This document shows positions 24,465 to 47,333 of a stretch of DNA of 64,000 nt, one piece after another (position 1 is the stretch's first letter; every line of letters starts with the position of its first letter). The stretch lies in NCBI RefSeq assembly GCF_025641885.1, contig NZ_JAOTQN010000001.1, positions 992,001 to 1,056,000 on the forward strand, in the 5' to 3' direction. Source of the DNA: Pyrobaculum sp. 3827-6 (GTDB lineage Archaea; Thermoproteota; Thermoprotei; Thermoproteales; Thermoproteaceae). The notes beneath the pieces are model-generated. The model searched no databases. It was given only the letters and a program-made list of their open reading frames with translations, and had not been told where the DNA came from. Both the position numbers and the translations under genes were made by a program.

Positions 24465-24513
24465 CAGCCCCCTAGAAAAAGATTCAATATAAAACCTTTT
24501 CCATTTATATAGA

Positions 24514-27086: not shown

Positions 27087-27103
27087 GCAACCAACCGGGC
27101 CAC

Positions 27104-27659: not shown

Positions 27660-28541
27660 TCACCGCAGAGTTGCAAACAAGCCGAGCAACTCCTTGTGAC
27701 GCGACACATCTGCGTGCAACTGCAGAACCTCGCCCCCCGAGAGGATCCTCACCTTGTCGGCAAGCTCGTGGAAAGCCCCCGAGAGATACGGCTCCAAAAG
27801 CCTCAAAGCCCGCTCCCTCTTACCCTCCCCAGCCACCACGAGAAACAGCCCCCGAGGCCTCCACACGTCGTAGGCGTGCTTCAGAGCCGCCAAAGACCTC
27901 TCCACAAACCCCCCAGCAACCACCTCGAAGACAGCCACAGGCGGAATCCCCCGCCTAGCCTCCACCTCACCCCTCCACCAACACACGTCATGCCTAAACG
28001 GCCCATTCGCCACCTCCACCCGCCCGTAGAACCCCAGCACCCCCGCCAGCTCAACAAGAGCTGACTTCAAAAGCTCGTGGCCCCCACCGCCGCCCCCAGC
28101 GCCCCCAAGCGCCCTCTCCACAAACTCCCCAAACCCCCTCGGAAGCGGCCCCCTCCGGTAGTAGTAGGAAAAGAGACGCAACGCGCTAGGCGACCCCACG
28201 CCGAACTCCCTAAGCCCCTCCAAGGCGTCGCCTATCCTCAGGACCCCGCGGGCCACCGGCCTCACCTCCACAACCCACGGGTACTTAACCCTCCCCTCCC
28301 TCTCCTCGTCAGGCCACGTCGCCCTCCTCGACCGCCTCCACTCCCCAGCCACCTCCCAAACCGCCACAAAAGACTGGCAAAGCTCAGAACAGCCCTCCTT
28401 CACCACGTACACAACCAGCCTATCACCCCTCTTTATGTTCCCAACGGCGAACTCCGCAGTCTTCGCAGGCGCGCCGTACAGACCCCTCTCCTCACTCCAC
28501 CTATAACTCTCCTCGGGAAGCATCACAAGCCAATAATCCAT
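27660..28541 (-). CDS. EVE-domain protein with C-terminal nuclease-like domain
   Basis: Residues 1-135 match the EVE/PUA-like fold that reads modified DNA or RNA bases: MDYWLVMLPEESYRW, a VGNIKRGDRLVVYVVKEG core and YPWVVEVRPV. The C-terminal ~130 residues look like a restriction-nuclease-type fold (LKSALVELAGVLGF; FRHDVCWW; PPVAVFEVVAGGF; RGLFLVVAGEGKR), but the catalytic triad is not certain. ATG 28541 was chosen over codons further upstream because it begins the EVE domain and lies 22 bases after a TTTTAAATA box. This is consistent with a modification-dependent restriction role. Confidence 0.72.
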   Translation of the reverse strand: MDYWLVMLPEESYRWSEERGLYGAPAKTAEFAVGNIKRGDRLVVYVVKEGCSELCQSFVAVWEVAGEWRRSRRATWPDEEREGRVKYPWVVEVRPVARGVLRIGDALEGLREFGVGSPSALRLFSYYYRRGPLPRGFGEFVERALGGAGGGGGGHELLKSALVELAGVLGFYGRVEVANGPFRHDVCWWRGEVEARRGIPPVAVFEVVAGGFVERSLAALKHAYDVWRPRGLFLVVAGEGKRERALRLLEPYLSGAFHELADKVRILSGGEVLQLHADVSRHKELLGLFATLR

Positions 28542-28695
28542 ATCTCCATTGAAACTCCTATTTAAAACCATGGCGCAAATAAACACCAAAACCCAGACCC
28601 CGCCAGCGCCGTAGTTGCTTAAATAATACTAGCCCCACCCCCCGCCGGGGGCCACCCTGAATCCAAGGCTTTTAAGCAGGTGGTTGGGTATATAC

Positions 28696-30947: not shown

Positions 30948-31001
30948 ACCCAGAAAAAACCAGCCAATAGAAATATAAAAACACAACCCCCAAAAAAACA
31001 C

Positions 31002-31184
31002 ATGAAGTGCCCCTACTGCGGCTCCACAAACGTAGAAGCCGTCAAAAGCTGGGACATGCCGAAGATGGGCTACCACGTCACCCACTACCGGTGCAAAACA
31101 TGCGGCGGCCTCTTCAACCACTACACAGGCAAAGGAAGGGAGTTCGTCCTCCGGGTAGGCCCTAGGAAGAAGACCTCCGCCTAG
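31002..31184 (+). CDS. 60-residue zinc-ribbon protein
   Basis: The protein starts MKCPYCGSTNVEAVKSWDMP and has a second knuckle CKTCGGLFNHYTGKG, a classical C4 zinc ribbon. It ends in basic residues (GPRKKTSA). An AATATAAAAAC box (30970-30980) lies about 26 bases before ATG 31002, giving it its own promoter. Its 3' end overlaps the convergent helicase by 23 bases. It may regulate the restriction-modification genes or be unrelated to them. Confidence 0.75.
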   Translation: MKCPYCGSTNVEAVKSWDMPKMGYHVTHYRCKTCGGLFNHYTGKGREFVLRVGPRKKTSA

Positions 31185-33582
31185 CGTTGTACTTGTATTC
31201 AATCCCCCTAACGGTCTCCAGCACCCACTCCCTCTGGAATTGCGCGAAGGGCACGCACGAAAGCTCCACACACCTATCATTATCTACATAAGCCGTGCAT
31301 ATTATGTAGCGGTCGGGATACCTCGAAGCAAAATCAATTTCATTTGCAGTAAAGGAAAAGGGCTCCTCCCTCTTGCCTATCCACTTCCCCTTAATCTCAA
31401 CAACGTACATCACTCCGTTTTTCAACACAACCATGTCAAAAGGCCGAGGCCCGCTGAAGTAGTCATGCCTAACCACATAGCCGTTTCTCCTCAACCACTC
31501 CCTTACACAGTTGACAGCCGCCTTCTCAGTCCGTTCGATAATCCTGCTCCGCCTCACCTCCGCCTCAACCCTCTCCTCAAACTCTTCCACAGCCACAGTA
31601 CCCACCCCCTCCACCCTAGCCCTCCTAATCCTCACCAACTTGTACTCAACATCGCCAAGGTGGAGCAAATCCTTCACATTGTCTAGGTACCTCTTCAAAT
31701 CCATCCACACATTCATGTGGACAAGCCTAGCCACCTCCTCCCGCTCATCCTCTCTCACCTCGCCAGACTCCACCTCAACAAAATCCCAATCCACAGCACC
31801 CTCTCTAAAAACCCCCTTCTTAATCTCGCGGCTCCGGCTAAGCGGAGTCTCCAGACGCACCAACACAGACTCTCTATACACAGGCTGTTTTGCGGAGAAG
31901 TACTCCACCTCGGCGAGGTAGTACCCGCCCCCAGGCTCCGGCCGCAGATCGTATGGATACCCCAGCTTGGCTCTGAGCCCGCTCTCCACCAAAGCCTTCG
32001 ACTTCCACCTCACCTCCTCCTTAGCCTTTAGTATAGCCTCAATCCTCCGCCTAAGCTCCTTCACCCTCTCCCCGTCTGACAAGGCGGTGAAGACGTCGGC
32101 CTCTTTTAAGTAGGCCGAGGAGCCTATTTCAATAATCTTCCGGAGCTGGTCCTCAGACAGCTCGTAAATCTCAAACTCGCCGTAGCTCTGAGGCGGAAGT
32201 GCCCTAAGCGAGATGTTGTAAAGCTTCTCCAAGAGGTCTAGATACATGGTGTACTCGTCCCGCTCCCCTCCCGCCCTCAGCACCATATCCACCACCAGCA
32301 CTGAGTCGGCCCTCTGGCCGAAGCGCCATATCCTCCCAACCCGCTGCACATGCTTCGTGGGGCTCCACACCACCTCGTAGTTAACAACCACGTCGTACAT
32401 CTGGAGGTTAACCCCCTCCGACATGATGTCGGTAGAGATAAACACCGCCGTGTCGAAGGAAGAGGCCAGGAGAGACGCCTCCACGTTTACATCTATCTTC
32501 TCCCTGGCCTTCGCCGTGGCGTACATAACCCCCATCCCCCCGCAGTCGGCCTTGGCGAAGCCATCCCCGGAGTCAACAACCCTGCAGCCCTGCGTCAGTT
32601 GCTGAAATAGATACTCAGCCGTCGCGGCGTACTCGGTGAAGACCAGCACCTTCCTCCCCCTCCACCGCTCAAGCAACTTCCTCAAAGCGTCGAGCTTCCT
32701 ATCCGGCGCCGAGGCGAATCTCCCAGCGAGCTCCACGAGATCCCTCCACCCCGCGACGTTCCCAATACAGGCATCCAGCTCCCCCTCCTCAAGAGCCGCC
32801 GCGTCGCAGACGCCCCCCACCACCCGCCCCAGCGTTTTGAAAAACGACGCGGGGCTAGACATAGCCCTCTTCTCAACCACAACCCTCACAATAGGCTCAA
32901 CATCGGCGCTCCTCAGCTTTGCCAGCAGACTAAACAGCGCCTGCCCCTCCTCCCTAGAGGCCCTCACCTGAACCACCCAGTAGCTGAGGCGGGGAAATAT
33001 CCTACGCCCCTCGTACTCCTCCACATCCCTCTTCTCCCTCCTAACCACCAGCCCGCCCACCAGCGACGTCAAGAACCGGTAGTCCTCCTCCTCGCCGGTG
33101 TGAGGCGTCGCGGTGAGGAGGAGGCAACCCCCCGCCTTTCTGCAGAGATGCGCCAGATTCGCCCTCTGGGTGTCAAGCCTAATCTTGTGGGCCTCGTCAA
33201 CGACGACGAGATCCCACGCTATGCGGCTAAGAGCCTCGAGGTAGTCCGGCACCTTCGCCCTATCCATAGTGACTAGGTACACCCTATGCCCCAGGGGAAA
33301 TTCAGAACTCTCCACTAGGAAATACGGAATCTCGAACCTCTCCAACTCCCCAGCCCACTGCGACAACACCGCCCTCGGCACCACAACCAAGACGTGGTTC
33401 ACCCGCCCCAGCTCCATCAACGCCTTCACCAAGAGCAACGCCTCGATAGTCTTCCCAAGCCCCACGTCGTCGGCAAGAAGAAGCCTAGGCCTAGGGAGCC
33501 ACAAGGCATCAGACACAAAATCAAGCTGGTGCCTATACAACTCCTTACCAGCCTGCCTAAGAATCTCCACTAGAGAGACCAT
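31162..33582 (-). CDS. SNF2-type helicase with C-terminal DUF3883/PD-(D/E)xK domain
   Basis: This is the helicase component of a helicase-methylase-ATPase defence system. Motif I is ADDVGLGKT, motif II VVVDEAHKI, motif III LLLTATPHTG; the second lobe has STDIMSEGVNLQ and QRVGRIWRFGQ. A long charged middle region follows, and the last ~110 residues are a nuclease-like DUF3883 domain (RPFDMVVLKNGVMYVVEIKGKW: D then E-x-K). Length is 806 residues. It is the last gene of the set on this strand and is separated from the ATPase by a small opposite-strand gene. Confidence 0.88.
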   Translation of the reverse strand: MVSLVEILRQAGKELYRHQLDFVSDALWLPRPRLLLADDVGLGKTIEALLLVKALMELGRVNHVLVVVPRAVLSQWAGELERFEIPYFLVESSEFPLGHRVYLVTMDRAKVPDYLEALSRIAWDLVVVDEAHKIRLDTQRANLAHLCRKAGGCLLLTATPHTGEEEDYRFLTSLVGGLVVRREKRDVEEYEGRRIFPRLSYWVVQVRASREEGQALFSLLAKLRSADVEPIVRVVVEKRAMSSPASFFKTLGRVVGGVCDAAALEEGELDACIGNVAGWRDLVELAGRFASAPDRKLDALRKLLERWRGRKVLVFTEYAATAEYLFQQLTQGCRVVDSGDGFAKADCGGMGVMYATAKAREKIDVNVEASLLASSFDTAVFISTDIMSEGVNLQMYDVVVNYEVVWSPTKHVQRVGRIWRFGQRADSVLVVDMVLRAGGERDEYTMYLDLLEKLYNISLRALPPQSYGEFEIYELSEDQLRKIIEIGSSAYLKEADVFTALSDGERVKELRRRIEAILKAKEEVRWKSKALVESGLRAKLGYPYDLRPEPGGGYYLAEVEYFSAKQPVYRESVLVRLETPLSRSREIKKGVFREGAVDWDFVEVESGEVREDEREEVARLVHMNVWMDLKRYLDNVKDLLHLGDVEYKLVRIRRARVEGVGTVAVEEFEERVEAEVRRSRIIERTEKAAVNCVREWLRRNGYVVRHDYFSGPRPFDMVVLKNGVMYVVEIKGKWIGKREEPFSFTANEIDFASRYPDRYIICTAYVDNDRCVELSCVPFAQFQREWVLETVRGIEYKYNARRRSSS

Positions 33583-33629
33583 AGCCTGAAAAGAGGGTAA
33601 AAAATAAATTTAAAACAAACAAGCCACCC

Positions 33630-33866
33630 ATGGAAGAAGTAATAAACACAACCCGACAAGTCGTGCCGCTAGTCTTAGCCATCATCATATTAATGATAAT
33701 CTACAATGTATCCATTAACATATTTGACACACTTAAAAACGCCCTTCATCCATATGTTGATGATATAATCCAATATAGCAAAAATTTATTAACCTTAGTT
33801 ACGTTTACACTCATCGTAGTCCTACCAATCTTGAGTTATTACCAGTCTAGGTTAACCGCAGACTAG
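33630..33866 (+). CDS. 78-residue two-segment membrane protein
   Basis: There are two hydrophobic segments (about 10-33, VVPLVLAIIILMIIYNVSI, and 52-68, LLTLVTFTLIVVLPILSY) joined by a short polar loop. An AAATTTAAAAC box (33606-33616) lies about 20 bases before ATG 33630. The gene is AT-rich, reads opposite to the surrounding defence genes and overlaps the end of the small 131-residue gene by 4 bases. Its position inside the helicase-ATPase set makes a membrane effector or an immunity-type role conceivable, but no family was recognised. Confidence 0.65.
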   Translation: MEEVINTTRQVVPLVLAIIILMIIYNVSINIFDTLKNALHPYVDDIIQYSKNLLTLVTFTLIVVLPILSYYQSRLTAD

Positions 33867-34258
33867 GGTAGTGCCTCCCGGTAGGTCTTGGCGATTTTCG
33901 CAAAGGCGTCGACAATGCGGCGGCAGTTGCCGCCCTCAGCTCTGCATAGCCAGAGCCTGTAGAGAAAGGCGTCGGCTATGAGGGACACCTCGTGAAGCCT
34001 GAGAGATGCGGCGAGTACCTCGGCCTCCCCCCGCGGCAGGCGGCCCCTGCGCGCCAGGAGGTACACCAAAGCCCTCTCGAAGGGAACTCTATCCCGGAAA
34101 ACCAGCTCCCCGTCGCTAAGCTCCACATGCCTCCCCACCTCCCAAGGCCACAGCCTCTTTAAAAAATCAGCCACCTCCTCCAGCGGCACCCCCACCTCAA
34201 ACCTCCCCTCCGGCGCCACCACAGCCACCCGACGCGCCCCCCGCCTCCTAATCAACAT
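33863..34258 (-). CDS. small protein of the helicase-methylase-ATPase operon
   Basis: This is a 131-residue protein, not recognised. It is basic at the N terminus (MLIRRRGARRVAVVAPEGRFE) and helical later, with a cysteine pair (LWLCRAEGGNC). Its ATG overlaps the end of the DUF499 ATPase by 7 bases, so it is cotranscribed with it and probably contributes to the same system. Confidence 0.75.
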   Translation of the reverse strand: MLIRRRGARRVAVVAPEGRFEVGVPLEEVADFLKRLWPWEVGRHVELSDGELVFRDRVPFERALVYLLARRGRLPRGEAEVLAASLRLHEVSLIADAFLYRLWLCRAEGGNCRRIVDAFAKIAKTYREALP

Positions 34259-37200
34259 ATCTCCTCCACCTCCACGTCGAAGGCGTAGTCCGCCCCCTTA
34301 AACTTCTGCGCCATATCACTGTCTATCTGGACAGCAGGCGAAAACTCAAACCTCACGTCAGCCCCCGGCGACAGGTACTCCAGAGCCGCCAGGAGTCTGA
34401 CCGCCCGCTCCCTCACCTCTGGAGATGTGACGTTAAACACGGCGTCTACGCTCAGCGACACGTCGCCCCCCACCTGCGCCGCCCTCACGGCGAGCCTATG
34501 CGGCACACCCCTCTTCACAAAGTAGTCAAGCAACCCCCTGGCGTCCTTCACAGCCTTTACAGAAATCCCCCTAACCGCTTCTCCCACATTTACAGAGTAC
34601 TTAGTCCTCACCTTCCTACACCGCCCCTTGACGTTTACAGCCACTCTCCTCCTATCTCTACCTCCATCTCTAAAGACGGCCTCTACCTCCAGGCTGTAGA
34701 CACCCGGCTCCCACGGCAGATCCACCTCAAACACGTGGACTCTGCCGGAGGCGCTCTCCTCCCTCTCCACATCACCCACGCGGTAGATAACAGCGGCTAG
34801 GTCGTCGGAACCCACCACCTCCACCCTCAGCCTGGAGCCGGGGTTCCGCTCCACCACAGGGGTAGCCACCCCATCAATCCTCACCTCCACAGCCCTCTCC
34901 CTAACCTCCACCTCCAGGCGGCCCTCCGAGAGGAAGGGCCAGTCGCCCCTAGCTGTGAGAAGCTCATCCACAGCCCTCTTCACCTCCTCGCCGCTGGGCC
35001 TCTTATACACCACGTAATACCGCGTCGCGCTTGTGGAAAGAGATGCCAGTTGCTTCAAAAACGCCTCCACAGCCCAATCCACAAGCTGATCTCTCCACCT
35101 CAGCGGGGCGACCCCAACGTCCTTGTCAAGCGGCGGAGCCTCACAACCAGACTTAGAGAGCCACTTAACCTCTCCATCCACCTCGAACAGGCAGCTACAC
35201 CCGGCGCAGTAGCTCTTCACAGCCTCTACAAACTCTTCAAAGGAGATAGGCGCAGGCGGGAACTTCTCGTTGTTTAGATACAGACTCCAGAGATCTCCCA
35301 GCTTCTTAAAGCCGTCCCACTGAAGCTCTGCGAAAATCTTCTCCACAAGCCCCCTCAAAACGTCAGACCTCTGCTTAGCCACCTCGCTGAGGTATTCGTC
35401 AAGCCGCTTCACATCCACATCCCTAAACCCAGCCGCCACCCTCCTAAGCCAGGCAAAAGCCGCCGCCCTCAGAGCATTCGCGGCGCGTTCCTTCCACCGC
35501 TCCACCCTACTCCTCAGCAACTGCTCCATCTCCCGCCTCAGCCTCTCGTCATCAACCGACAAGACATCCGGGAAGTAGTGGTACAAGTTGACAAGAACCT
35601 CGTCAACCGCTTTGTAGAGCTGGCCCAACGCCACGGCGGCCTCCTTCACGTTCTTAACAGCCACAAACCTCTCTAAAAGCCGCCCCGCGTCGGCAGGCGG
35701 GGGCCCCGAGTCGTCCCGCCTAACGAAAAAGAGGTTGTTCCTCCGCCTACCCACCCCAAACTCCATCAAGTCAACAGCCAGCGTGGACTTATCCGCGTCG
35801 TCCAGCGCCTTGGCCCACTCATCTCTATTTGGAATAATCACCACCTTGCCGGAGGCCCTCCTCTGGCTACCCACGCCTGAGACGTACACCGCCGAGAAAA
35901 ACCGGGCCCCCTCCCTAAGTAGAGAAGCCAGCTGGTCAGCAACCACGTCGATGCCATCCTCATACGAAAACTTAAACATGGCCTCCCTTATCGCGTGCAC
36001 CTCATCCCCCACAAACCAGTAGAGATACCTATCCCCCAGCCTAGCTACGTGAAGCCCCACGTCAGTGGCCTTAGCCAACACCTCCCTCACCTCAATAGGC
36101 CTAATATCAACCCCATTGTAGCTACCCGCCACAAGATCATCCTCCGTCGGATACAGAGACTCCGCCGGCATAAGCCGGGCGAGGAAGGTCGCCAGGAGGA
36201 TGTGCCTCAGGACTGAGACAGCGGCCCTGCTCCCCAGCCTCTCCACATCCTCTCTGTACAGCCTCAACAAGGTGGCCCACTCCCCGGCCATGGGCCCACC
36301 CACGACGAGTATATCCTCAGGCTCCGGCAGGTGGACAAAGGTCACAAGCTCCTCGGGAGACGCCTTGACGTAGGCCCTGGCCAAGGTGCGGAGAAGCTCC
36401 CTAGTCATCTGAACCCTAGTCCTCCCAGCAAGCGACTCGCTGGCAAGCCTCAACACGATGTCGAGAAAGACGGGGTTGAAGGGGTACGCATCCTCCAGCC
36501 CCTTCTCAAACTTCCTTAACTTCTCCTCCTTCACCACGTCTTTCAGTGGCGCCACGTCGACCTTCCTGGGCCGGAGGCCGGCCCACCGCCTGAAGACGGC
36601 GACTATGTTCTCTGTCGTATCAAGGCTGATCTTTACGATGTGCACTCTCTTCACCGCGTCCAGTGACTTGAAGATCTCTAGGGCGGGGTCTCGGCTGTCG
36701 TCCGGGAAGAGTGAGTATGACACAAAGAGGTAGACCCCTCTGACTTCCCCGGCGACCTCAGCCAGCGTCTGGATCCACTGCACGAAGCCGGGTTCCTCCT
36801 CTAGGTACTGCGTTTCGTCAAACAGCAACACTAGGGGGGCCAGCCCTCTAGTAGCCTCTCTAAGCTCCTCCTTTGTGGAGAGAGACCTCAGCCGCCTCTC
36901 TAACTCTCCCAAGATCCGCGCGGCTCTGAAAACGGCCACGTTGGGCACCTTGGCAAGGGTTGGCGTATACAGCTCAATCCCGTACTCAGCCAAGTGCCGC
37001 GAGACGCACTCCCCCGACCCCTTACACCTCTTGTACAAGGCCACGATGTGGAGGACTAAGGCGAGGAAGTGCGACTTCCCGGCCCCTAGCATAGCTGGAA
37101 GCGTATATATCTGCGACTCCCCCGCCGTCAGCTTCTTTAAGAAGTCCTCAAGGTGCTGTCTAAACCCCGGCGTGATGTACGTAATCTTGAAGAAGGACTC

Positions 37201-37323
37201 TGGGTCACAGTAGATCTTGTGTGCCTCCTCCGGATCTCTCCCTAGAAACAACGCCCCGTAGACCTCGTATATGTCGATGGCCGGACTTATCTTACCCTCG
37301 GCCAGCAATTTTATAAAAGACAT
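34252..37323 (-). CDS. DUF499 AAA+ ATPase of a defence system
   Basis: This is a large (1023-residue) P-loop ATPase. Early in the protein LPAMLGAGKSHFLALVLH forms Walker A and LAPLVLLFDETQYLEEE forms Walker B. The C-terminal half has beta-sandwich segments (VHVFEVDLPWEPGVYSLEVE). DUF499 proteins occur next to DUF1156 methylases and SNF2 helicases in defence islands, exactly as here. The ATG at 37323 follows the methylase stop by 30 bases. Confidence 0.86.
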   Translation of the reverse strand: MSFIKLLAEGKISPAIDIYEVYGALFLGRDPEEAHKIYCDPESFFKITYITPGFRQHLEDFLKKLTAGESQIYTLPAMLGAGKSHFLALVLHIVALYKRCKGSGECVSRHLAEYGIELYTPTLAKVPNVAVFRAARILGELERRLRSLSTKEELREATRGLAPLVLLFDETQYLEEEPGFVQWIQTLAEVAGEVRGVYLFVSYSLFPDDSRDPALEIFKSLDAVKRVHIVKISLDTTENIVAVFRRWAGLRPRKVDVAPLKDVVKEEKLRKFEKGLEDAYPFNPVFLDIVLRLASESLAGRTRVQMTRELLRTLARAYVKASPEELVTFVHLPEPEDILVVGGPMAGEWATLLRLYREDVERLGSRAAVSVLRHILLATFLARLMPAESLYPTEDDLVAGSYNGVDIRPIEVREVLAKATDVGLHVARLGDRYLYWFVGDEVHAIREAMFKFSYEDGIDVVADQLASLLREGARFFSAVYVSGVGSQRRASGKVVIIPNRDEWAKALDDADKSTLAVDLMEFGVGRRRNNLFFVRRDDSGPPPADAGRLLERFVAVKNVKEAAVALGQLYKAVDEVLVNLYHYFPDVLSVDDERLRREMEQLLRSRVERWKERAANALRAAAFAWLRRVAAGFRDVDVKRLDEYLSEVAKQRSDVLRGLVEKIFAELQWDGFKKLGDLWSLYLNNEKFPPAPISFEEFVEAVKSYCAGCSCLFEVDGEVKWLSKSGCEAPPLDKDVGVAPLRWRDQLVDWAVEAFLKQLASLSTSATRYYVVYKRPSGEEVKRAVDELLTARGDWPFLSEGRLEVEVRERAVEVRIDGVATPVVERNPGSRLRVEVVGSDDLAAVIYRVGDVEREESASGRVHVFEVDLPWEPGVYSLEVEAVFRDGGRDRRRVAVNVKGRCRKVRTKYSVNVGEAVRGISVKAVKDARGLLDYFVKRGVPHRLAVRAAQVGGDVSLSVDAVFNVTSPEVRERAVRLLAALEYLSPGADVRFEFSPAVQIDSDMAQKFKGADYAFDVEVEEIC

Positions 37324-37353
37324 ACATGGAACTCTTCAGATACTTAAAAGTAC

Positions 37354-40300
37354 CTACCCCCACCACTCGGCGCCCAAAACAGCTCTCGCCGTCCTTACGT
37401 CTACGTCGTCCTCGTCGAGGACCCCCGCCCTAGCCAGCTCCACAAGCGCCTTCGCCAGCGCCAAGGCCTCCTCCCTAACCTCCGGCGCACAGGTGACGGA
37501 GATCTTGGCCAGGTGTTTGAGCTGAAGCTGGCGGAAGCAGTCAAGCACCGGCCGCCCCCGCTGAGCCGAGTACACCCGCCGGATCTCGTCCACCGTGTCC
37601 TCCCGCGGCGCCAAGACCTCAAAAGCCTTGCGCTTAGCCACCCTCGGCCCACCCACGTCGGCCTCCCTAATCAGCCCCAGCTTGATGAGGTCTACGTGCG
37701 GCAGGCCAGTGGCCCGCTCCACGTGAGACAGAGTGTCGCTGTCCACATACCCCCGCTCGTTCTCCATAATGCGGAGGGCAAGGTAGGCGTGCGCCGCCGG
37801 GTCGGACAGCCTCACCCCGGCCTTCCTGAGGAGGGCCTCGAAGGCGATAGCCACCGCCTGCCTCATCAACCCCTCGGAATCAAGCTCCAAGCCGCCGAGC
37901 ATAACCGGGCTGTGGGCCGTGAGGTACTCCAAAGCCGCCAAATAGGCGTAGACCCACACGGTCGTCTTGTTGCCCCCAGACAGACAGCTCTTCTCCACAG
38001 ACGCCTTCGACACAGCCCTCAGCCTGCGGTCGATTCTCTCGGCCACCTCCTCTATTACCCTATCCCTCCAGGCCGAGAGGTCCAGCGGCTTAGGACCGGA
38101 CCTGCGCCTCCACGCAGAGACGTAGCCGCCCAGCACAGACGCCTTGCCCCTAGCCACGACGTTCTCCTCACTCTCAGTAACCACCGGGTACGCCGCCACC
38201 ATCTCCAGCCCGTTCACGCGCCAGAGCGCATCCACAAGGGCGGCCCACGACTCCGGCTTCTTAGCCACGTAGTAGGTCACAAGAAGGCCGTCCTCCTTCA
38301 AAAACCTGAGCACGTTAGCAAAGGCCTTAGCCAGCATGTCGCGGAAAGTGGCGCTGATCTTGAAGTACTCCCAGCGCCCCACGCTCTCCGACACCTCCCT
38401 CACGGAGAACCTCTCCCACTGAGTCCTCACCTCCAGCCCAAGCTCGTCGAAAAACGCCTCGGGCAGAAACCTAGGCCGAAGCGCCGCGCCGTCGCTGTCG
38501 CTGAGCGCCCTCTTAAGCCACACAAAGTAGAAGTCGCTCAGCTCGGAATAAGGCACATCGTCTGCGTAGGGAGGGTCGGTGACAACAATATCAAACATAT
38601 CATCACCAAATGATTCAAGTGACACAACGTCATCAAGCAAGACCCTAACCCTACTAGGACTGTCGCTAGCAACAGAAATGAGATAAGGTAATACTTTTTC
38701 TGTGGTTTTATCCATATTCATTTTTAGTGTCCCAGTGCCGCTAAAATCAGCAAAGGGAGAAACATCGCCCCAATTCCAAGACATAGCTATACCTCTCATG
38801 GATAATGCATGAGAAACTTTAGCTGGAAGTTGTCCACCATACTGCCAGAATGTAACCTCGCAATTATAACTAACATATCTTACCAATGCTATTGCTAGGT
38901 ATATTGTTACTGCTTCTGCGTATTTAAGCGCCTCTTCTTTGTTCAATCCTTCCTTTAATTTATCTTCCTCAATTTTCTTACCTGCCTCACGTATTAGTTT
39001 AACAAGTTTGACTAGGGTTAGGAGCTGGCGTGGGTTGAAGAGTTTAAACCATTCGTCGAAACCGTATGTATTGATGAAATGTCTGTCATCGTACGGAGAT
39101 ATACTCTCAGTGGGTAGATCCGTATCTCCCCACATCCGTCTGAGTTTCTCAGCGGCTTGCCACAGCTTGTCCACGTCTTGTTGAGTTGCTGGCTGGAACT
39201 GCAGGTCGCCGTCTTTGACGTATACCTTGACAAGGAGTGTGGGCCTCGCGGGCGCGTTTTTGAGATCCTCCAGAGTGGCCTCACCCCTTAGGTACTTTTC
39301 GTATAGCTCGTTCCACTGGCGGAGGGCCCACTTGACGTACCAGTCGCCGTCTCTCCTCCCGCCTTTTGTGATTTTTCCGTTGACCACCCGGTGGTTGATC
39401 TCGGCGCGGCAGTGTAGGCACTGGGCGGTCTCCTTTCTGGCGTCTATGTTTTTGGCCGGCACGGCGTAGCGCCGTCCCCGCCACTCCACCGAGCCGCCGC
39501 CTTCCTCCTCCTTGGTCTGCACCTTGGCGTTGAGCTCGCCGCAGCCGCCCCCGCCTTGTCTTCTGCACTCCTCGTTTAGATCCACCACGGAGATGCGGCC
39601 CTCCTCCCACTTCATCCACGCCAGCCTCTCGTAGTAGGTCTTTCCCTTGACTCTGGCGAGCCACCAGTTGCCCACCAGCGGGGTGTAGCGGCCGCAGACG
39701 GGGCACTTGACCTCCCAGGTGCCTATGTAGACGTCGGCGTCGTAGAGCCCCGCCACGTCCGGGTCGTTGCGCAACTGATCCAGCACCCACCTCCCCCACT
39801 TCGCCACGTCGTATATGAGCGCCGGCACCTTGTACCTGGCTGAGTCAGCCGCCGCCCTCACGCCGTTGAATTTCTTCACGACGTCTTCTAGGCCGAGCTC
39901 CCTCGCCTCTCTGCCGGTGATCTCTGTTGTGAGGTGGCCGAATTTCTTTGGGTACTCCAGCACCGCCTTGAGAAAGACGTAGGCCGTGGGCAGGAGCTCC
40001 ACGGCCGCGGCGTCGGCGCCTAGCCTGGCCGCCTCCAGCGGAATGGAGCCAAAGCCCGCGAAGGGGTCGAGCACCTTCTTGCCCCTCAGCCTCTCCACAA
40101 GGCGCGGCGAGGGGTTGCACTGGTGCACCGTCTTCCTCTCGCGGCGGCATGGGAAGAGGTCGTTTAGGAACTGCTCCGGGTTGCTGTAGGCGTCGGCGGG
40201 CAGTAGCGCCGCGGCGATCACCGCCCTAGCCCCAGCCAGCGGCTTCCGGGTCCACCAAAACACCATCTCCCAATGCGGAGGCCTCCCAGGTCCCTTCTCC

Positions 40301-40359
40301 ACACAGCTGTATTCGTTAATAGCCTCAATCGGTATGCCAGCCTCCAGCAGAGACACCAT
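37354..40359 (-). CDS. DUF1156 DNA methyltransferase
   Basis: This is the methylase of the defence system. The DUF1156 start (MVSLLEAGIPIEAINEYSCVEKG, then FWWTRKPLAGARAVIAA) is followed by the SAM motif VLDPFAGFGSIPLEA, a zinc-knuckle insert (CPVCGR, CLHC) and the catalytic VVTDPPYADDVPY. About 1000 residues. The frame is open to GTG 40401, but the TTTTTAAA box at 40376-40383 favours ATG 40359. The stretch from about 38,580 to 39,180, between zinc insert and catalytic motif, is distinctly AT-rich within an otherwise GC-rich gene. Confidence 0.87.
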   Translation of the reverse strand: MVSLLEAGIPIEAINEYSCVEKGPGRPPHWEMVFWWTRKPLAGARAVIAAALLPADAYSNPEQFLNDLFPCRRERKTVHQCNPSPRLVERLRGKKVLDPFAGFGSIPLEAARLGADAAAVELLPTAYVFLKAVLEYPKKFGHLTTEITGREARELGLEDVVKKFNGVRAAADSARYKVPALIYDVAKWGRWVLDQLRNDPDVAGLYDADVYIGTWEVKCPVCGRYTPLVGNWWLARVKGKTYYERLAWMKWEEGRISVVDLNEECRRQGGGGCGELNAKVQTKEEEGGGSVEWRGRRYAVPAKNIDARKETAQCLHCRAEINHRVVNGKITKGGRRDGDWYVKWALRQWNELYEKYLRGEATLEDLKNAPARPTLLVKVYVKDGDLQFQPATQQDVDKLWQAAEKLRRMWGDTDLPTESISPYDDRHFINTYGFDEWFKLFNPRQLLTLVKLVKLIREAGKKIEEDKLKEGLNKEEALKYAEAVTIYLAIALVRYVSYNCEVTFWQYGGQLPAKVSHALSMRGIAMSWNWGDVSPFADFSGTGTLKMNMDKTTEKVLPYLISVASDSPSRVRVLLDDVVSLESFGDDMFDIVVTDPPYADDVPYSELSDFYFVWLKRALSDSDGAALRPRFLPEAFFDELGLEVRTQWERFSVREVSESVGRWEYFKISATFRDMLAKAFANVLRFLKEDGLLVTYYVAKKPESWAALVDALWRVNGLEMVAAYPVVTESEENVVARGKASVLGGYVSAWRRRSGPKPLDLSAWRDRVIEEVAERIDRRLRAVSKASVEKSCLSGGNKTTVWVYAYLAALEYLTAHSPVMLGGLELDSEGLMRQAVAIAFEALLRKAGVRLSDPAAHAYLALRIMENERGYVDSDTLSHVERATGLPHVDLIKLGLIREADVGGPRVAKRKAFEVLAPREDTVDEIRRVYSAQRGRPVLDCFRQLQLKHLAKISVTCAPEVREEALALAKALVELARAGVLDEDDVDVRTARAVLGAEWWG

Positions 40360-40481
40360 ATCAAACAACTCCCAATTTTTAAACCAGCTGTACGCTATCA
40401 CTGAAATATAAGCTCACGGGTGTATCTGCACGTCATTTTGACTGATTCATTTATATCTACATCCACAGGATTATCATTTAG

Positions 40482-41954
40482 ATGGCCAGTACCCACGCCA
40501 AAGATAGAGCTCCTACACGGGAGGGAGTTTATGAGAGCAATAAATATCCAACGTCTACAAATAACAGTACGGCCATTCTACACAGATTATATGAGTTACG
40601 CAAAAGACAAATAAATGGCGTAGACTGCCTAAGGGAGTCCACAAAGTGCGCCAATCTCCTTAAGAAGATCTTAGGCAGTGAGCTATGGTATGTTCGTGAA
40701 AATCCCCTTGTCTACGTGGCGAGGAATGATTTGGCTTCTAATCCCTACCTATCTCCGTATAGGATAGAAGATATCAACTTGGCTCTAGGTCTGAATCTCT
40801 CAAGCATCGAGTTTGAGTTTGGCAGTGGCGTGGTGGACAAGTCGCCTTATGAAATTAGAAGGCTCCCTCCATATAAGGGGCCAACTGGGAGAGTTCCGTT
40901 AAGAATATACTATCAGTCAAGATATAAGCAAATAGGGCTGTGGCTAGTTAGGGATTGGAATCTCTTTGATGTCGAGCTACACTTATTGAGAGGGGAGGAT
41001 GAGCTTTCTACTGTAAGTGGCAGTATTGTTGGAGACCCTGGTGTCTCAGTACTGATAGTGGGCAAGGATTTTCTCGAGAAGCATTTCGATGATATCGTTC
41101 GTCTGAAGAGGGAGAGCTTTGAACAAGGCAATGGCCGTTCTAGACTTCAGATAATTAATGGCGACGATCTTGGCGGAAAAATCCGCGCCCGTGGTGCAAA
41201 GTATATATTAGCTAATCTCCGTTCGGCTATACTGTATAAGGCCCATTACACGCCATTTAGGGTGGTGCTTCCTAAAGGGTGTGAGTTATGTGATTTGATT
41301 TCGAGTAGCTTGGTTGTGGGGATGGCTTTGGCTAAGGAGGGAAATGACTACATCAAGGCTGTTGCAGTATTGATGACTAGTTCTGGCGACGTTGTAGGGT
41401 ATGTAGATACTAAAAGGGTGTTTAGGGGGAGGTCTATGGAGCTGAGGGCAGATGAGGCGGAAGAGTTCGGTGGAAAAGTAGGCAAGTTGGTAAATGAATA
41501 CAGGTCACACTATGTTACAGAGTTCCGCAGGGAGCCCGGTTTGATTATTATTGCTCGAAGTAGATCGTTTAGGGAGGAGGAGGCAACGAGGGTGCGTAGG
41601 GGCTTTTCGACGATTCTGGAGAGGGTGAATAGCGGTATAAGGAATGTGTTGAGTGAGGATAACTTGTTGTTTATGTCGACGACGAAGACTGATTATAATT
41701 TTGGAAGAGACGTGGCGGCGCATGTGGCTTCTATCAACCAGCGAAATGCTGGTGCTTGGTTTCTTCAACCTGCTAGTTTTGAGAGAGCGGTGAAGGTCTC
41801 CTACCAAGGGTATATGAAGGACTTTGACGTACGGTTGCCAGCAATTGCCTACACTTATCTCAGGGCGTTAGACTTCACAAGTCTTAGTGGTAAGAGGACG
41901 ACAATAGCGCCCGTTACATATGCCAAGCGTTTCCTACGGTGGTATAAACACTGA
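40482..41954 (+). CDS. catalytically degenerate PIWI/short Argonaute-like protein
   Basis: By eye this is a MID-PIWI protein. Residues 108-133 (IEFEFGSGVVDKSPYE) resemble the opening strand of short prokaryotic Argonautes; 140-265 fit a MID domain (LQIINGDDLGGKIRARGAKY then NLRSAILYKAHYTPFRV). The rest follows the PIWI order. Catalytic positions look lost: VVGMALA in place of GIDVS, IIIARSRSF in place of IHRDGR, and TIAPVTYAKRF in place of the final P-x-HYA. It probably binds guide/target nucleic acid without cleaving. It is AT-rich and overlaps the next gene by 35 bases. ATG 40482 lies about 30 bases after a TTTATATC box. Confidence 0.7.
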   Translation: MASTHAKDRAPTREGVYESNKYPTSTNNSTAILHRLYELRKRQINGVDCLRESTKCANLLKKILGSELWYVRENPLVYVARNDLASNPYLSPYRIEDINLALGLNLSSIEFEFGSGVVDKSPYEIRRLPPYKGPTGRVPLRIYYQSRYKQIGLWLVRDWNLFDVELHLLRGEDELSTVSGSIVGDPGVSVLIVGKDFLEKHFDDIVRLKRESFEQGNGRSRLQIINGDDLGGKIRARGAKYILANLRSAILYKAHYTPFRVVLPKGCELCDLISSSLVVGMALAKEGNDYIKAVAVLMTSSGDVVGYVDTKRVFRGRSMELRADEAEEFGGKVGKLVNEYRSHYVTEFRREPGLIIIARSRSFREEEATRVRRGFSTILERVNSGIRNVLSEDNLLFMSTTKTDYNFGRDVAAHVASINQRNAGAWFLQPASFERAVKVSYQGYMKDFDVRLPAIAYTYLRALDFTSLSGKRTTIAPVTYAKRFLRWYKH

Positions 41955-42612
41955 AGAGATCAATATTGAGAATATAGCAAGCCTACTGAAATTTCTACAT
42001 GATCTTCTTGAGAAGTGGTGGGGCTGTATTTACAAGAGGTTGCCTGAGCGCTCTAAGAAGTGGCTTAGTAGGATTTGGCCTCGGGATGCGGGGGATTGTC
42101 TTGAGGCTGTTTCATTGCTGAGGAGGGGGTATAGTGTAGTAAGGGATGAAAGAATAATTGCCGAGCTGGGTTCTGTCTACAGGAGGATTGAGGAGGTATT
42201 TAGAGGATTAAAGAGCGATTTGTCTGATTTTCGTAGGTGGATTGTACTGCTTAATGAGATGGGGATTATTGCTGAATATCTCGGTGGGTATTGGAAGGAT
42301 AGCTTTGAACAGAGGCTTAGAGAGATAAGGAGGTTTTACAAAATTGACTGCGGTAGATCTGTCAGGTGTGCGGCGCCAGAGAGGTGTTTGTTTCTTTACG
42401 TGGTTTGTAGCGACAAGTCAGCAAGGAGTCGGATCGTGCGGGACTTGAAAGGTATTGCTTCGAGAGGCACTACGTGGTCTGAATTGGCGGCGTATTTGAT
42501 AGGGGATGATGTTCCAAATAGTTATCGCGAATTGATAGGGGATATTTACGCCGTCTGTTCTAATAGGGGTGTAAATCGCTACGCGGGTAACAACGGTGGG
42601 CTATCTAAATGA
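41920..42612 (+). CDS. partner of the PIWI protein, unknown
   Basis: This is a 230-residue protein with no recognised family. It is predicted largely helical, Arg/Lys-rich in the first half (WGCIYKRLPERSKKWLSRIW) and has several cysteines (GDCLEAV, KIDCGRSVRC, ERCLFLYVVC). No membrane segment or TIR/SIR2/nuclease motif is visible. The start overlaps the PIWI gene's end, so the two are translated from one message. Short Argonautes normally need a partner, so this is the candidate. It ends 6 bases before the convergent lysZ stop. Confidence 0.65.
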   Translation: MPSVSYGGINTEEINIENIASLLKFLHDLLEKWWGCIYKRLPERSKKWLSRIWPRDAGDCLEAVSLLRRGYSVVRDERIIAELGSVYRRIEEVFRGLKSDLSDFRRWIVLLNEMGIIAEYLGGYWKDSFEQRLREIRRFYKIDCGRSVRCAAPERCLFLYVVCSDKSARSRIVRDLKGIASRGTTWSELAAYLIGDDVPNSYRELIGDIYAVCSNRGVNRYAGNNGGLSK

Positions 42613-42618
42613 GTCGGT

Positions 42619-43398
42619 TTAGTCCGTTATGTGTGTCCCGGCTCCGTTTAGGGCTGTGTCTATGGGGCTGTCGGCGAGTCCGCTTGCGATTATTACCTCT
42701 ATGCCGGTTTTGGCGGCCTCGGTGGCCATGAGTAGCTTTCTCTTCATGCCTCCCCTCACCTCTTCGCTTTGGACTAGCTTCTCTGCCTCTGGGGCGGTGA
42801 GGTGGGGGACCACCTTCCCGCCTATGTAGAGGCCCTCCACGTCGCTGAGGAGCAGGAGCTTCTGGGCCTTCACGGCCTTGGCTACGTCGAAGGCTAGCTG
42901 GTCTCCGTCGACGTTTAGAAGCTCGCCCTTCTCGGACACGGCGATGGGTGCCAGCACCTTGAGGGGTGGGGGGAGTAGCTTGTCTGCATCTATCTGGGTG
43001 ATGCGGCCGACGTAGCCTCCGTCTACCACCCTCTGCCGGCCTCTCTCGTCTACTATCAAGACTTTTTCTTTGCGCTTCGCCTTGACGACGCCGAGGTCTG
43101 CGCCGGTTAGGCCGAGGGCCGGCACGCCGAGGGCGTGGAGGGCGGCTACTATCTGCTTGTTTATCCAGTTCATGGCCATGACGAAGGTTTTTAGAGTTTC
43201 CCAGTCGGTGTATCTGCTTACGAGGCCTCCTGGGTGGGTTAGGTACTTGGGTTCTAGGCCTAGTCGCTTCATGAGGTCGTTTACCATGCAGCCGCCTCCG
43301 TGCACCACGACGGCGCGGTCTGCGTATTTGGGGAGGTTTTGTATTGTCTTGGTGGGGTCTTTGCAGACTACCGACCCCCCGATCTTTATGACTATCAT
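42619..43398 (-). CDS. lysZ: [LysW]-aminoadipate/glutamate kinase (acetylglutamate kinase family)
   Basis: LysZ phosphorylates the LysW-bound intermediate. The family motifs are KIGGSVV at the N terminus, [17 protein letters not shown], the LTGADLGVV region and [10 protein letters not shown]; a C-terminal [10 protein letters not shown] completes the nucleotide site. Length is 259 residues. Its ATG overlaps the lysY stop by 4 bases, so it is the last gene of lysX-lysY-lysZ. Confidence 0.88.
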
Positions 43399-44450
43399 AT
43401 GGGGGCGATGGGGATTGTCCTCAGCCCCTCGTCCTCTGGGAAGCCCATGGCGATGTTGAAGGCCTGCACCGCCTGGCCGGCGGCGCCTCTGACTAGGTTG
43501 TCTATGGCGGCGAAGGTGACTACCCGGCCGAGGCGGGGGTCGATCTCAAACCCAATGTCGACGTAGTTGGAGCCGAGGATGTACTTGACGTTGGGGTACC
43601 GGGACACGCCGAGGCGGTCTTTTACCAGTCTTATGAACTTCGAGTCGCTGTACATTGACCTGTAGTATTTCCACATGTCGGCCTCCGTGGGGGTCTTGTC
43701 GGTGTATACGTGGCCTGTGGTGAATATGCCCCTCACGATGTCGACGGCGTGGGGAGTGAAGGCCACCTTTACGGACCTGCCGGCGAGTAGGCTGAGCTCC
43801 TGCTCAATCTCGGCGATGTGGCGGTGGTGGACGGGCTCGTAGGGCCTCACTACGTAGGTGCGGAAGCTGTGTAGGTCGACGAAGGAGCCCTCGGCGCCGG
43901 CGCCGCTGGAGCCTATCTTGGCGTCTACCACGGGTGGGGTGTTGCCTATGACGCCGTGTTTTGCCAGGGGGGCTAGCATGAGTATGGAGGCGGTGGCCAT
44001 GCAGCCCGGCACCGCGACGAGCTTTGCGCCGGGTAGCTCGTGTCTGTGGAGCTCGGGCTGTCCGTATACGGCCTTCTGGAGGAGGTCGGGGTATGGGTGG
44101 GGCTGTGGCCACCTGTACCACTGGACGTAGGCGTTGGGGTCCTTGAGGCGGAAGTCGGCGCTGAGGTCGAATACGGCGGCTCCTGATTCGTAGAGCTTGG
44201 GCACCCACTTGACGGACTCGCCGTGTGGCAGGGCTAGGAACACTACGTCGGCCTTCAAGGCGGCGTCGATCGACGGCTCGACGAACTTCAGCTGGGTTAC
44301 GCCGCGGAGGTTGGGGTGCACCCTGTAGACGTACTCCCCCTTGAACTTGCGGGAGGTGGCGCAGACCACCTCGACTCCGCTGTGCTGTAGGAGTAGCCTC
44401 AGGAGCTCCCCTCCGACGAATCCCGAGGCGCCTACTACGCAGACTTTCAT
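43395..44450 (-). CDS. lysY: [LysW]-aminoadipate/glutamate 6-phosphate reductase
   Basis: LysY (ArgC family) reduces the LysW-bound acyl phosphate. NADP site: [18 protein letters not shown]; catalytic cysteine in [14 protein letters not shown]; substrate part [19 protein letters not shown]. The open frame runs on to 45131, but everything upstream of [10 protein letters not shown] (ATG 44450) lies over lysX and reads as Pro/Arg-rich nonsense. 351 residues. The ATG overlaps the lysX stop. Confidence 0.9.
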
Positions 44451-45120
44451 ACGAGCTCTGCCAGCGCCTGCGCCTCGTCTCTGTTTTCTATGGCGGGTAC
44501 GGGGTCGACGTCGACGACGTACTGGGCGGAGCCGTAGCTTCCGAGGGTGACGCGGGCGTACAGCAGCCCGAGGTCCTTTAGGACGTCTGCCACTAGGCCG
44601 GTGGCTGTCTTCGCCGTGGCGAATATCTTGGCTGTGGAGTGGGGCTTCGGTATGACGATGGTCACCTTGGAGAGGGGGTTGCGCATGTACATCCTGTGTT
44701 CTATCACGCTTTTGGCCCCCTCGACGCTGGTCACGGGGCCGTCGAGGTCTAGGCGCCAGGCTGTGAGGAGTAGCCATGGCCTCTCCAGCTCTACCTTCTC
44801 TACTGTGTGGTCTGTTGATACGAGGGCGTAGGGGGGTCCGTATTTGGGTATCCAGTTGAGGCGGTTGAGGGCGGCGTATATGGCGGGGGGCGGGTTGATG
44901 CTCCTCTTCGCGATCTGGCCGTATATGGCGGCGGTGTAGGGGTTGCCCATCCTTAGGATGGCTGTTCCGTGTAGGGCGTGGATGGGGGTTTCGGAGATGT
45001 TTACAACAACGGGCTTGTGGCCCCTTGCGGCCAGCGCGTCTGCTAGTATCTTGTCTTGTAGGGTGGGGCTGTCTGTGAGGATGTATATCGCCCCACTTTC
45101 CCCTCTGGCCCCTGGTCCAT
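44447..45120 (-). CDS. lysX: LysX-like ATP-grasp ligase, expressed only after a -1 frameshift
   Basis: By position and partial similarity this is the LysW-aminoadipate (or glutamate) ligase. The enzyme frame reads AIYILTDSPTLQDKILADAL at its start and contains NRLNWIPKYGPPYALVST and YVVDVDPVP; about 225 residues, shorter than typical LysX (~280). No ATG, GTG or TTG exists in frame for the first ~47 residues. The ATG expected from the promoter (45120, 23 bases after TATATAAG) is one frame off and stops at 45043-45045. Slips of -1 at GAG-GGG-AAA (Lys) or GTG-GGG-CGA (Arg) enter the enzyme frame. Confidence 0.75.
45043..45120 (-). promoter_or_regulatory. lysX leader minigene with Lys- and Arg-coupled slip sites
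   Basis: Zero frame: ATG 45118-45120, 25 codons, TAG 45043-45045. Three runs of four G are read xxG-GGG: 45109-45112 followed by CCA (Pro), 45100-45103 followed by AAA (Lys), 45091-45094 followed by CGA (Arg). A -1 slip at any of them leads into the LysX frame without a stop. Confidence 0.6.
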
Positions 45121-45138
45121 GCGTGCCTCATGTGGCTA

Positions 45139-45176
45139 CTATATAAGTTTTTTGTCTGCGAAAAGGTTATATATAG
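45139..45176. promoter_or_regulatory. divergent promoter, lysX operon / thrC operon
   Basis: CTATATAAG at 45139-45147 (CTTATATAG on the minus strand) lies about 23 bases before the lysX leader ATG at 45120. TTATATATAG at 45167-45176 lies 22 bases before the thrC leader ATG at 45194. Both predict leaderless transcripts that begin at the leader codons. Confidence 0.65.
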
Positions 45177-45193
45177 GTGGTATTTTGCGGGTC

Positions 45194-45235
45194 ATGGAGG
45201 GGATTTCGGGGACGGTGTACGCCTCCGCTGTGTGA
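45194..45235 (+). promoter_or_regulatory. thrC leader minigene with Ile- and Thr-coupled slip sites
   Basis: Zero frame: ATG 45194, 13 codons (MEGISGTVYASAV), TGA 45233-45235. Two runs of four G are read xxG-GGG: 45199-45202 followed by ATT (Ile) and 45208-45211 followed by ACG (Thr). A -1 slip at either gives the frame of threonine synthase, starting GDFGDGVRLRC or GDGVRLRC. Confidence 0.6.
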
Positions 45236-46341
45236 CATGCGGCTCTGTGTTTGCTCCGAACTATAGGCTATATAGGTGTCCCAAGTGTGGGGGCCTTCTC
45301 GAGGTGGAGGTGTCTAACCTCTACTGGGCGCCCAAGGGGAGGGGGGTGTGGCGCTACGCTTCTATGCTCCCGCTTAAGAGCGGCGTGTCGCTGGGGGAGG
45401 GCCAGACTCCTCTTGTGAAGTCGGCGCTGGGGGAGGGGCTCTATGTGAAGTTCGACGGAGCTAACCCGACGGGTAGCTTCAAGGACAGGGGGATGGCGCT
45501 GGGGGTGACGGTGGCGAGGGAGAGCGGGGCTAACAAGGTGGTTGTCGCCTCCACTGGCAACACTGCGGCGTCTGCGGCGGCTTACGCGGCTAGGGCTGGG
45601 CTTAGGTGCTACGTGGTTCTGCCGAGGGGGAACGTGGCGAGGGGTAAGCTGGTGCAGGCGGCGCTTCACGGTGCGGAGCTGGTGATGGTAAACGGCTTTT
45701 TTGACAAGGCGCTGGAGTACGTGGTTAACTACGGCACTAAATACGCCTACCCCCTCAACAGCTTCAACCCGTGGAGGCTGGAGGGGCAGAAGACCCTGGC
45801 TTTTGAGGTGTATGAGGAGCTGGGGTGTCCGGACTATGTGGTGGTGCCGGTGGGGAACGCCGGCAACATATCTGCTATCTGGAAGGGGTTTAGGGAGCTG
45901 GCCTCCCTGGGGCTGTGCGGCAAGCTTCCCAAGATGGTTGGGGTGCAGGCGGAGGGGGCGGCGCCGCTGGCGGACGCGTGGGAGAGGGGGCTGGACGAGC
46001 CTCTATTCGTCGATGAGCCGAGGACAGTGGCGTCGGCGATTAAGATCGGGCGGCCTATCAACTGGCCTAAGGCTTTGAGGGCGGTGAGGGAGTCGGGGGG
46101 CTTCTTCGTGAAGGTGTCTGATGGGGAGATTATGAGGGCGCAGAGGCTCCTGGCGACTAGGGACGGCCTGGGGGCGGAGCCCGCCGGGGCGGCTTCGGTG
46201 GCGGCTGCCCTGAAGCTCGGCCTCGGGGGGACGGTGGTCGCCGTCGTCACCGGCCACGCGTTGAAGGACCCCGACGCGGTGGAGGTATCGGCTAGGGAGG
46301 TTAGGAACGCCGACGAGCTCGCGGAGCTTTTGGAGCGATGA
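45194..46341 (+). CDS. thrC: threonine synthase, expressed only after a -1 frameshift
   Basis: ThrC converts phosphohomoserine to threonine with PLP. An N-terminal zinc ribbon (RCVTCGSVF, RCPKCGGLL) precedes the fold-type II domain; the PLP lysine is in NPTGSFKDRGM and the phosphate loop in VPVGNAGNISA. The in-frame ATG at 45130 lies upstream of the TATA box and would add an unlikely hydrophobic head. The promoter-matched ATG 45194 is in the +1-related frame and terminates after 13 codons. A -1 slip at GAG-GGG-ATT or TCG-GGG-ACG restores ThrC. The aspartokinase gene overlaps its stop. Confidence 0.9.
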
Positions 46342-47333
46342 AGCCCGTGGTTAAGATCGGGGGGTCGCTCCTCCGCTCCGCGTCTGATTTCAAAAGGGCG
46401 GCCAGCTTCGTCGCGTCGTATCGGGAGCCGCCTGTCGTCGTCGTCTCGGCTATCAAGGGGGTGACGGACATGTTGCTGGAGCTTGAGCGGACTAGGAGCT
46501 ACCTACTCTACGAGGAGGTTCTCCACAGACACCTCTCGGTGGCCAGGGCGCTGGGGGTGGAGGAGGCTGTGGCCCCCCTATTGAGGGAACTGGAGGCGGC
46601 TCTGAAGGCGCCGCGGGGCCCGTGGTCCGCAGACTACTTCGCCTCCTTCGGCGAGAGGCTGTCGGCGAGGATTCTCCACGGAGTTTTGGCGGCCATGGGG
46701 GTGGAGGCGGGGCTGTTCGAGGCGCCGGTGGTGACGGACAGCAACTTCGGCAACGCGGAGCCACTCCGGCTGGAGCGTAGGGACGAGATCGCGGAGCCGG
46801 GGGTGGTGGCGGTGGTGACGGGCTTCATCGGCAGGGACAGGGAGGGCCGCTTCACGACGGTGGGCCGCGGGGGTAGCGACTACACGGCCACCTACGTGGG
46901 GAAGGAGATCGGGGCGAGGAAGGTGACTTTGGTGACCGACTCGCCGGGGGTCATGACGGCGGATCCGCGGGAGGTGGAGGAGGCCTACGTCCTGCCGCTC
47001 CTCTCCCTCCAGGAGGCGGTGGAGGCGGCCAAGGTGGGGGCTAAGAACTTCCACCCCCGCACCTTCATCCCCGTGCTGGAGGCCGGGGGGATGGCTGTGG
47101 AGGTGAGGAGCTACGAGAGCAGGGGCACCCTAATCGCAAACGTCTACGCGCCGCCTCCCTTCAAAATCGCGGTTAGGTGCGGCCAGGGTAGCTGCGTGGT
47201 GGGGCTGGGGGCGCAGGAGCTGACAAAGCTGGGGGGCGTGGCGGTGGGGCGCTACTCGGTGAGGCTGGGGATCCCGCCGCGGCAGGCCCATGAACACCTA
47301 ATTCTGCCCTACGTCAAGTATATTAGGGGGTAA
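46338..47333 (+). CDS. lysC: aspartokinase with shortened regulatory part
   Basis: Aspartokinase performs the first step towards threonine and methionine. The kinase core is clear: VVKIGGSLL, VVSAIKGVTDM, TTVGRGGSDYTAT, TLVTDSPGVMTADPR and NFHPRTFIPV. At 331 residues it lacks most of the usual double ACT regulatory region; only ~60 residues follow the kinase domain. It overlaps thrC by 4 bases and was probably followed directly by asd before the mobile element inserted. The short tail makes feedback inhibition by threonine doubtful. Confidence 0.88.
   Translation: MKPVVKIGGSLLRSASDFKRAASFVASYREPPVVVVSAIKGVTDMLLELERTRSYLLYEEVLHRHLSVARALGVEEAVAPLLRELEAALKAPRGPWSADYFASFGERLSARILHGVLAAMGVEAGLFEAPVVTDSNFGNAEPLRLERRDEIAEPGVVAVVTGFIGRDREGRFTTVGRGGSDYTATYVGKEIGARKVTLVTDSPGVMTADPREVEEAYVLPLLSLQEAVEAAKVGAKNFHPRTFIPVLEAGGMAVEVRSYESRGTLIANVYAPPPFKIAVRCGQGSCVVGLGAQELTKLGGVAVGRYSVRLGIPPRQAHEHLILPYVKYIRG

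Follow-up and report, generated by a model that had tools for sequence, protein, structure and literature searches.

The known catalytically inactive pAgos of archaea act through a partner gene lying directly downstream, of the Af1317/SiAga2 type (PMC10954474), and long-B pAgo systems also have their partner gene directly downstream (PMC10620215). The split pAgos AfAgo/AfAgo-N and SiAgo/Aga1 possess an N-L1-L2 half (PMC10954474). DUF499-centred BREX-related (BR) systems, alias Hma, have been surveyed (PMC12839542), and in archaea EVE genes accompany BREX-related systems (PMC7641849). The words PIWI, Argonaute and pAgo do not occur in the text of the BR survey (PMC12839542). A search of open-access papers returned no account of an association between Argonautes and DUF499 operons, and we could not find an earlier description of an Argonaute pair as an exchangeable cassette beside a BREX-like operon.

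Such a pair is described here from a window of 64 kb, the whole stretch of DNA that was analysed, in an archaeal genome of 2.30 Mb (G000). The first-pass annotation had placed the pair in a defence island, and a DUF499/DUF1156 BREX-related operon indeed adjoins it.

An inactive Argonaute and its overlapping partner

The upstream gene of the pair (40482..41954, + strand) encodes a catalytically inactive MID-PIWI Argonaute of 490 aa. The downstream gene (41920..42612, + strand) encodes a partner of 230 aa that is predicted to be all-helical and has no known domain. Their reading frames share 35 bases in the ORF listing of the window, and the positions, lengths and overlap first reported for them are exact. 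Both exceed chance length: in 2000 Markov shuffles of the pair's stretch, the longest stop-free run was 215 codons (median 77). The pair had also been called AT-rich, which agrees with a GC content of 46% against 57-59% in the neighbouring operon. A TATA-like box, tttatatcta (40450..40459, + strand), can be read about 25-30 bases before the PIWI ATG, and TTTTATATT is likewise read upstream of the PIWI genes in G165 and G093.

Homologous overlapping PIWI-partner pairs with the same gene order occur in three other places: G165, from the same genus, G093, from the same family, and contig WUQR01000055.1 (G217). Their PIWI proteins are 40%, 40% and 44% identical to that of the window, respectively, and their partners 33%, 34% and 29%. 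G165 and G093 resemble each other more closely (PIWI 80%, partner 84%). Because both genes diverged together, at 40%/33% between the window and G165 and at 80%/84% between G165 and G093, the pair is taken to be one unit. The sample consists of four loci with about three distinct alleles, and three of the loci have the lysZ border in common and could be related by descent. A single-protein scan of genome contigs added nothing, plasmids held nothing, and viral contigs held nothing for PIWI or partner. A match in G228 (E 3e-5) was rejected as it sits among ribosomal protein genes. Partner matches in G309, G058 and G314 (E 0.001-0.009) were rejected as short, two of them having internal stops. The ‘Candidatus Calditenuaceae’ MAG label of the fourth locus (L012, on WUQR01000055.1) is doubted. 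The contig encodes a 655-aa ATPase that is 77% identical to the G165 one and that 25 relatives of the MAG lack, so the contig is probably thermoproteal DNA binned wrongly, in which case the PIWI-partner family may be confined to Thermoproteales.

The 490-aa protein is an Argonaute with a MID (Rossmann-like) and PIWI (RNase H-like) fold. The PADLOC pAgo profile matches it over residues 205-383 (E=1.1e-15) and matches the PIWI protein in all four members (best 9e-22). A four-row PIWI profile finds 9qbl, a 482-aa argonaute, in the PDB (E=7e-4), and against eleven archaeal pAgos a profile-profile comparison yields E 7e-11; a single-sequence PDB search with the window protein produced chance matches only. 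Foldseek of the AlphaFold model, which is weak (mean pLDDT 48, from a two-row alignment), returned 41 PDB matches at E<=0.001, of which the top 40 are Argonautes, led by AfAgo (5.6e-10). In structure alignments the model reaches Z 14.3 with AfAgo over 304 residues (span 107-472) and Z 14.0 with SiAgo from the SiAgo-Aga1 complex (residues 103-485), and it also fold-matches SPARTA and SPARSA chains.

The first-pass annotation had read this protein as a short Argonaute with an N-terminal strand, MID and PIWI in that order. The PADLOC, 9qbl and AfAgo matches bear out MID-PIWI, as do the top 40 fold matches in the PDB. The predicted structure does have the PIWI fold whose absence would have refuted that reading. 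However, the Argonaute part starts only near residue 103, behind a poorly predicted extension (residues 1-100), and profile and tree group the protein with inactive archaeal pAgos like AfAgo and SiAgo, so that the short-Argonaute reading holds in part. The tree covers 26 archaeal pAgos; the four members group together (100) at the end of a long stem, and the nearest relative outside it is L097 of G117, a single-chain pAgo of 611 aa (SH-aLRT 96, long branches).

In the alignment the canonical G-I-D corresponds to G280-M281-A282, the canonical R-D-G to R359-S360-R361, and the fourth catalytic position (H/D) to K482. The DEDX comparison covers three alignable positions, the glutamate having no alignable counterpart, and by this reading the PIWI nuclease is dead at all three (A282 and S360 in place of D, K482 in place of H/D), as had been proposed. 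Catalytic loss is usual among the PIWI relatives, since none of the aligned pAgos keeps the first catalytic aspartate. All four members retain K209, Q223 and K253 of the MID pocket, where the usual Tyr is replaced by Ile, while the C-terminal segment of related pAgos is about 25 residues shorter in these proteins. With the pocket tyrosine missing and the C-terminal segment shortened, guide anchoring may differ. Where MID meets PIWI, all four members share an invariant C267-x2-C270 motif that relatives lack.

In the partner, three to four cysteines are conserved, C150-x5-C156-x6-C163 plus C144 or C147. They suggest a metal site, and the motif could also be purely structural. The structure model, built from two sequences and of middling confidence (pLDDT 58), is all helix. 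The partner matches no family in Pfam or PADLOC, with no TIR, SIR2 or nuclease domain recognised there, and no PDB chain at a meaningful E-value. Foldseek gives nothing below E 1, and hydropathy indicates no membrane helix (maximum 19-residue value 0.88). It had been described from the start as free of TIR, SIR2, nuclease and membrane features, and these searches agree. No conserved copy of the HEPN motif R-x4-6-H was seen in it. Several candidate likenesses were discarded: fold similarity to assorted helical bundles (Z <=6.0) is within the chance range for helical models, a PSP1 Pfam match of two members (0.006) was judged chance, and a Cas4-type cluster (C-x2-C-x5-C spacing in some members) was dropped as there is no PD-(D/E)XK core.

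AfAgo-N and APAZ are strand-rich. The first-pass suggestion that the partner may be an APAZ-like half is disfavoured by its all-helix model, within the limits set by a pLDDT of 58. The partner profile resembles none of the proteins, N-lobes among them, that are encoded next to 25 related pAgo genes. No N-L1-L2 half adjoins the pair, and the N-lobe profile A7 finds none in G000, G165, G093 or G217; as a control this profile recovers G117 at 1e-56, whose N-lobe is itself one profile row, and a far relative could escape it.

The adjoining operon and the exchange of the pair

The neighbouring operon contains the three genes that define a tripartite DUF499 BREX-related (Hma) system, namely a helicase, an N6-methylase and a DUF499 ATPase, all on the - strand. 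Nearest to the pair is a DUF1156 DNA methyltransferase (37354..40359), assigned to the BREX-related (Hma) operon by Pfam and PADLOC, whose start at 40357-40359 is favoured over a GTG at 40401 by homologues and by the end of DNA identity. The DUF499 AAA+ ATPase (34252..37323, also by Pfam and PADLOC) belongs to the same operon. The SNF2/DEAD helicase (31162..33582) has a C-terminal NOV_C domain, is HmaA/DrmD/BrxHII-like and carries a nuclease-like FDMVV...EIKGK by inspection. An EVE-domain protein (27660..28589, - strand) lies in the left part of the island, and several sister loci have related genes upstream of the methylase. An Eco57I-type N6 methylase with a TaqI-like specificity domain (28684-30114) separates the EVE gene from the helicase and runs on the opposite strand. 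Strong AT/GC skew is seen at 13000-18000 and 29000-32000 of the window, with AT skew up to 0.45.

The pair occupies a replaceable cassette (40361..42627, no strand) which has no DNA similarity to G165 or G093, while the flanking DNA aligns at 82-91%. This feature, more telling than those listed in the first-pass annotation, is absent from it. Between the window and G165 the DNA is 91.5% identical over 31001-40360, up to the methylase start codon. No alignment extends across the pair, and 91% identity resumes from 42628, 16 bp past the partner stop. G093 has the same two cassette borders as G165. At synonymous sites PIWI and partner have reached saturation, against dS 0.07-0.40 for helicase, methylase and ATPase; for this reason rapid protein evolution alone is rejected as the cause of the divergence. 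In the comparison of G165 with G093 the pair has dS 0.33-0.45, near the 0.48 of the methylase, and dN/dS 0.23-0.24, so that it is under purifying selection where this is measurable. By these comparisons the pair was replaced as a unit in one line and, its dS being close to that of the methylase, inherited with the operon in another.

The island spans 25931-42624 of the window, and to its right lies an amino-acid kinase of the lysZ/argB type (42619..43398, - strand), fragments of which border sister islands. The native arg/lysZ locus of G165 (L114) is without the island, matching the window at 20621-25930 and then at 42625-47333, with 4 kb of other genes between the two matching stretches. At the island's site there (L114:6648-9251) stand an AAA ATPase of 463 aa and, next to it, a protein of 402 aa, McrB/McrC-like by eye. 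Fragments of lysZ/argC border the copies of this island in G165 and G093 and a second DUF499 operon in G000 and G165 (border fragments at L112:11497-11803, L113:11073-11426 and L014:12830-13141). The lysZ gene appears to serve as an integration or recombination border of DUF499 islands, and the whole island looks mobile.

In the second DUF499 islands, a protein of 373-376 aa is encoded between the operon and the lysZ fragment (L112:10328-11449, L113:9893-11023). It has an N-terminal hydrophobic segment and the sequence RNYVAH (R-x4-H), a motif of the kind that HEPN RNases typically have, with no HEPN profile match, and is predicted to be a membrane-HEPN protein in the same border position as the PIWI cassette.

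Possible roles of the pair

The best explanation, to which we give about an even chance, is that the pair comprises a guide-using sensor and a helical effector or adaptor, forming an accessory layer of the restriction island. The MID-PIWI protein would bind a small 5′-phosphorylated guide and, once loaded, would detect invader nucleic acid that matches the guide and leave it uncut. The effect of target binding would be passed on by the helical, cysteine-rich partner encoded in the same cassette, which would serve as effector or adaptor. The cassette would constitute a second defence layer in an exchangeable accessory slot beside the DUF499/DUF1156 operon, a slot in which the predicted membrane-HEPN protein seems to fill a similar accessory role in sister islands. 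In its favour, the partner gene has, overlapping PIWI in all four members, the downstream position in which AfAgo-type and long-B systems carry their effector gene (PMC10954474, PMC10620215). Points against this explanation are that the partner matches no effector family, that the loci are few, that the pocket tyrosine is missing, and that the structure models are of low confidence.

The pair might instead be an independent pAgo module that travels with the island, having the same molecular role with no functional link to the operon. Defence islands gather unrelated systems, and shared border sequences can swap whatever stands between them. Divergent transcription also fits such a module, and the pair is not co-transcribed with the operon, given its divergent orientation and its own promoter-like box. 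On the other hand, neither the 81 genomes of the class nor a 300-genome sample of the phylum contains a pair apart from the DUF499/DUF1156 operon. In all four loci the pair is divergent from the DUF1156 methylase and within about 0.25 kb of its start, and this holds for the fourth copy, whose downstream genes differ from those of the first three. That difference in flanks indicates that the link between pair and methylase is not only the inheritance of one place, although the independent cases are few. An independent module is possible and on the unlikely side.

A closer association, in which the pair is an integral specificity subunit and PIWI with its guide brings the methylase or the helicase-nuclease to the DNA of invaders, would account for the position beside the methylase start codon, fixed in all copies, and for the retention of a PIWI pair there despite differing alleles. 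This arrangement is rather unlikely. A survey of 45 genomes in the order shows methylase homologues in 12, and nine of these 12 are without the pair (one, G189, on a weak match), which argues that the operon does not need it. The promoters are separate, and the methylase has a recognition-like centre of its own: residues ~400-600 are hypervariable, with 44-75% identity there against 81-98% elsewhere, and are likely its DNA-recognition region. We consider it quite doubtful that the locus is a guide-directed BREX-related system in which the dead PIWI targets the methylase-helicase via a cysteine-cluster (Zn/Fe-S) adaptor and the cassette is swapped like a specificity module. It is very improbable that the partner is a stand-in N-L1-L2 (APAZ-like) lobe of a split Argonaute with its effector elsewhere, perhaps in the operon, for although AfAgo and SiAgo have such a half and none was found near the gene or in the genome, the partner model is helical, its gene lies downstream of PIWI and not upstream, and its profile is unlike the proteins at the 25 related pAgo loci or any PDB chain.

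The pair adds an Argonaute lineage with a partner of unrecognised fold and no detectable N-lobe, a test of the rule that truncated pAgos act as split N-lobe/MID-PIWI pairs. In addition, its Argonaute genes have a fixed, exchangeable site beside a BREX-related operon, a site seemingly taken by an HEPN protein in sister islands. If cassette and operon cooperate, guided immunity would be joined to modification-based restriction. If they do not, the accessory position in such islands is a place in which to look for new effectors.

Comparison with known systems

BR/Hma systems share with this locus the helicase, the DUF499 ATPase, the DUF1156 methylase and a nearby EVE gene. Unlike their components, the PIWI cassette of the window is divergent from the operon and optional.

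SPARTA, SPARSA and SPARDA have a MID-PIWI protein of similar length, with the 9qbl profile match and the fold matches as further likenesses. In these systems APAZ is fused to TIR, SIR2 or a nuclease, whereas none of these is recognised in the partner. On the sequence evidence, the pair is not a short pAgo system as defined, the APAZ-effector being absent.

The nearest sequence relative, L097 of G117 (hhalign E 8e-8), is followed by a gene for 246 aa that overlaps it by 4 bases. In contrast to the pair, this pAgo has its own N-lobe, its genome has no methylase match, and its downstream protein has no similarity to the partner.

SiAgo-Aga1-Aga2 of Sulfolobus islandicus (8znj, 9lgw) is likewise a crenarchaeal inactive MID-PIWI protein in a multi-gene defence unit. 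The pair differs in that no Aga1-like half was detected and, by hydropathy, its partner is without the membrane segment of the Aga2 type.

The AfAgo system of Archaeoglobus fulgidus (PMC10954474) is similar in its inactive MID-PIWI protein, which is the best fold match, in its downstream overlapping partner and in its AT-rich island. AfAgo has its own upstream N-L1-L2 subunit (AfAgo-N), whereas no N-lobe gene was found for the pair. Its downstream helical protein is fused to an effector domain, whereas the partner described here is unrelated in sequence, with no added known domain recognised. More generally, AfAgo/SiAgo-type split pAgos have a downstream fusion with TM, TIR, HEPN or PD-(D/E)XK; the partner of the window is also downstream, overlapping and, in its model, helical, and no fused domain is recognised in it. 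As no N-lobe was found, the pair is not counted as an AfAgo/SiAgo-type split pAgo, though it probably works in the manner of such systems.
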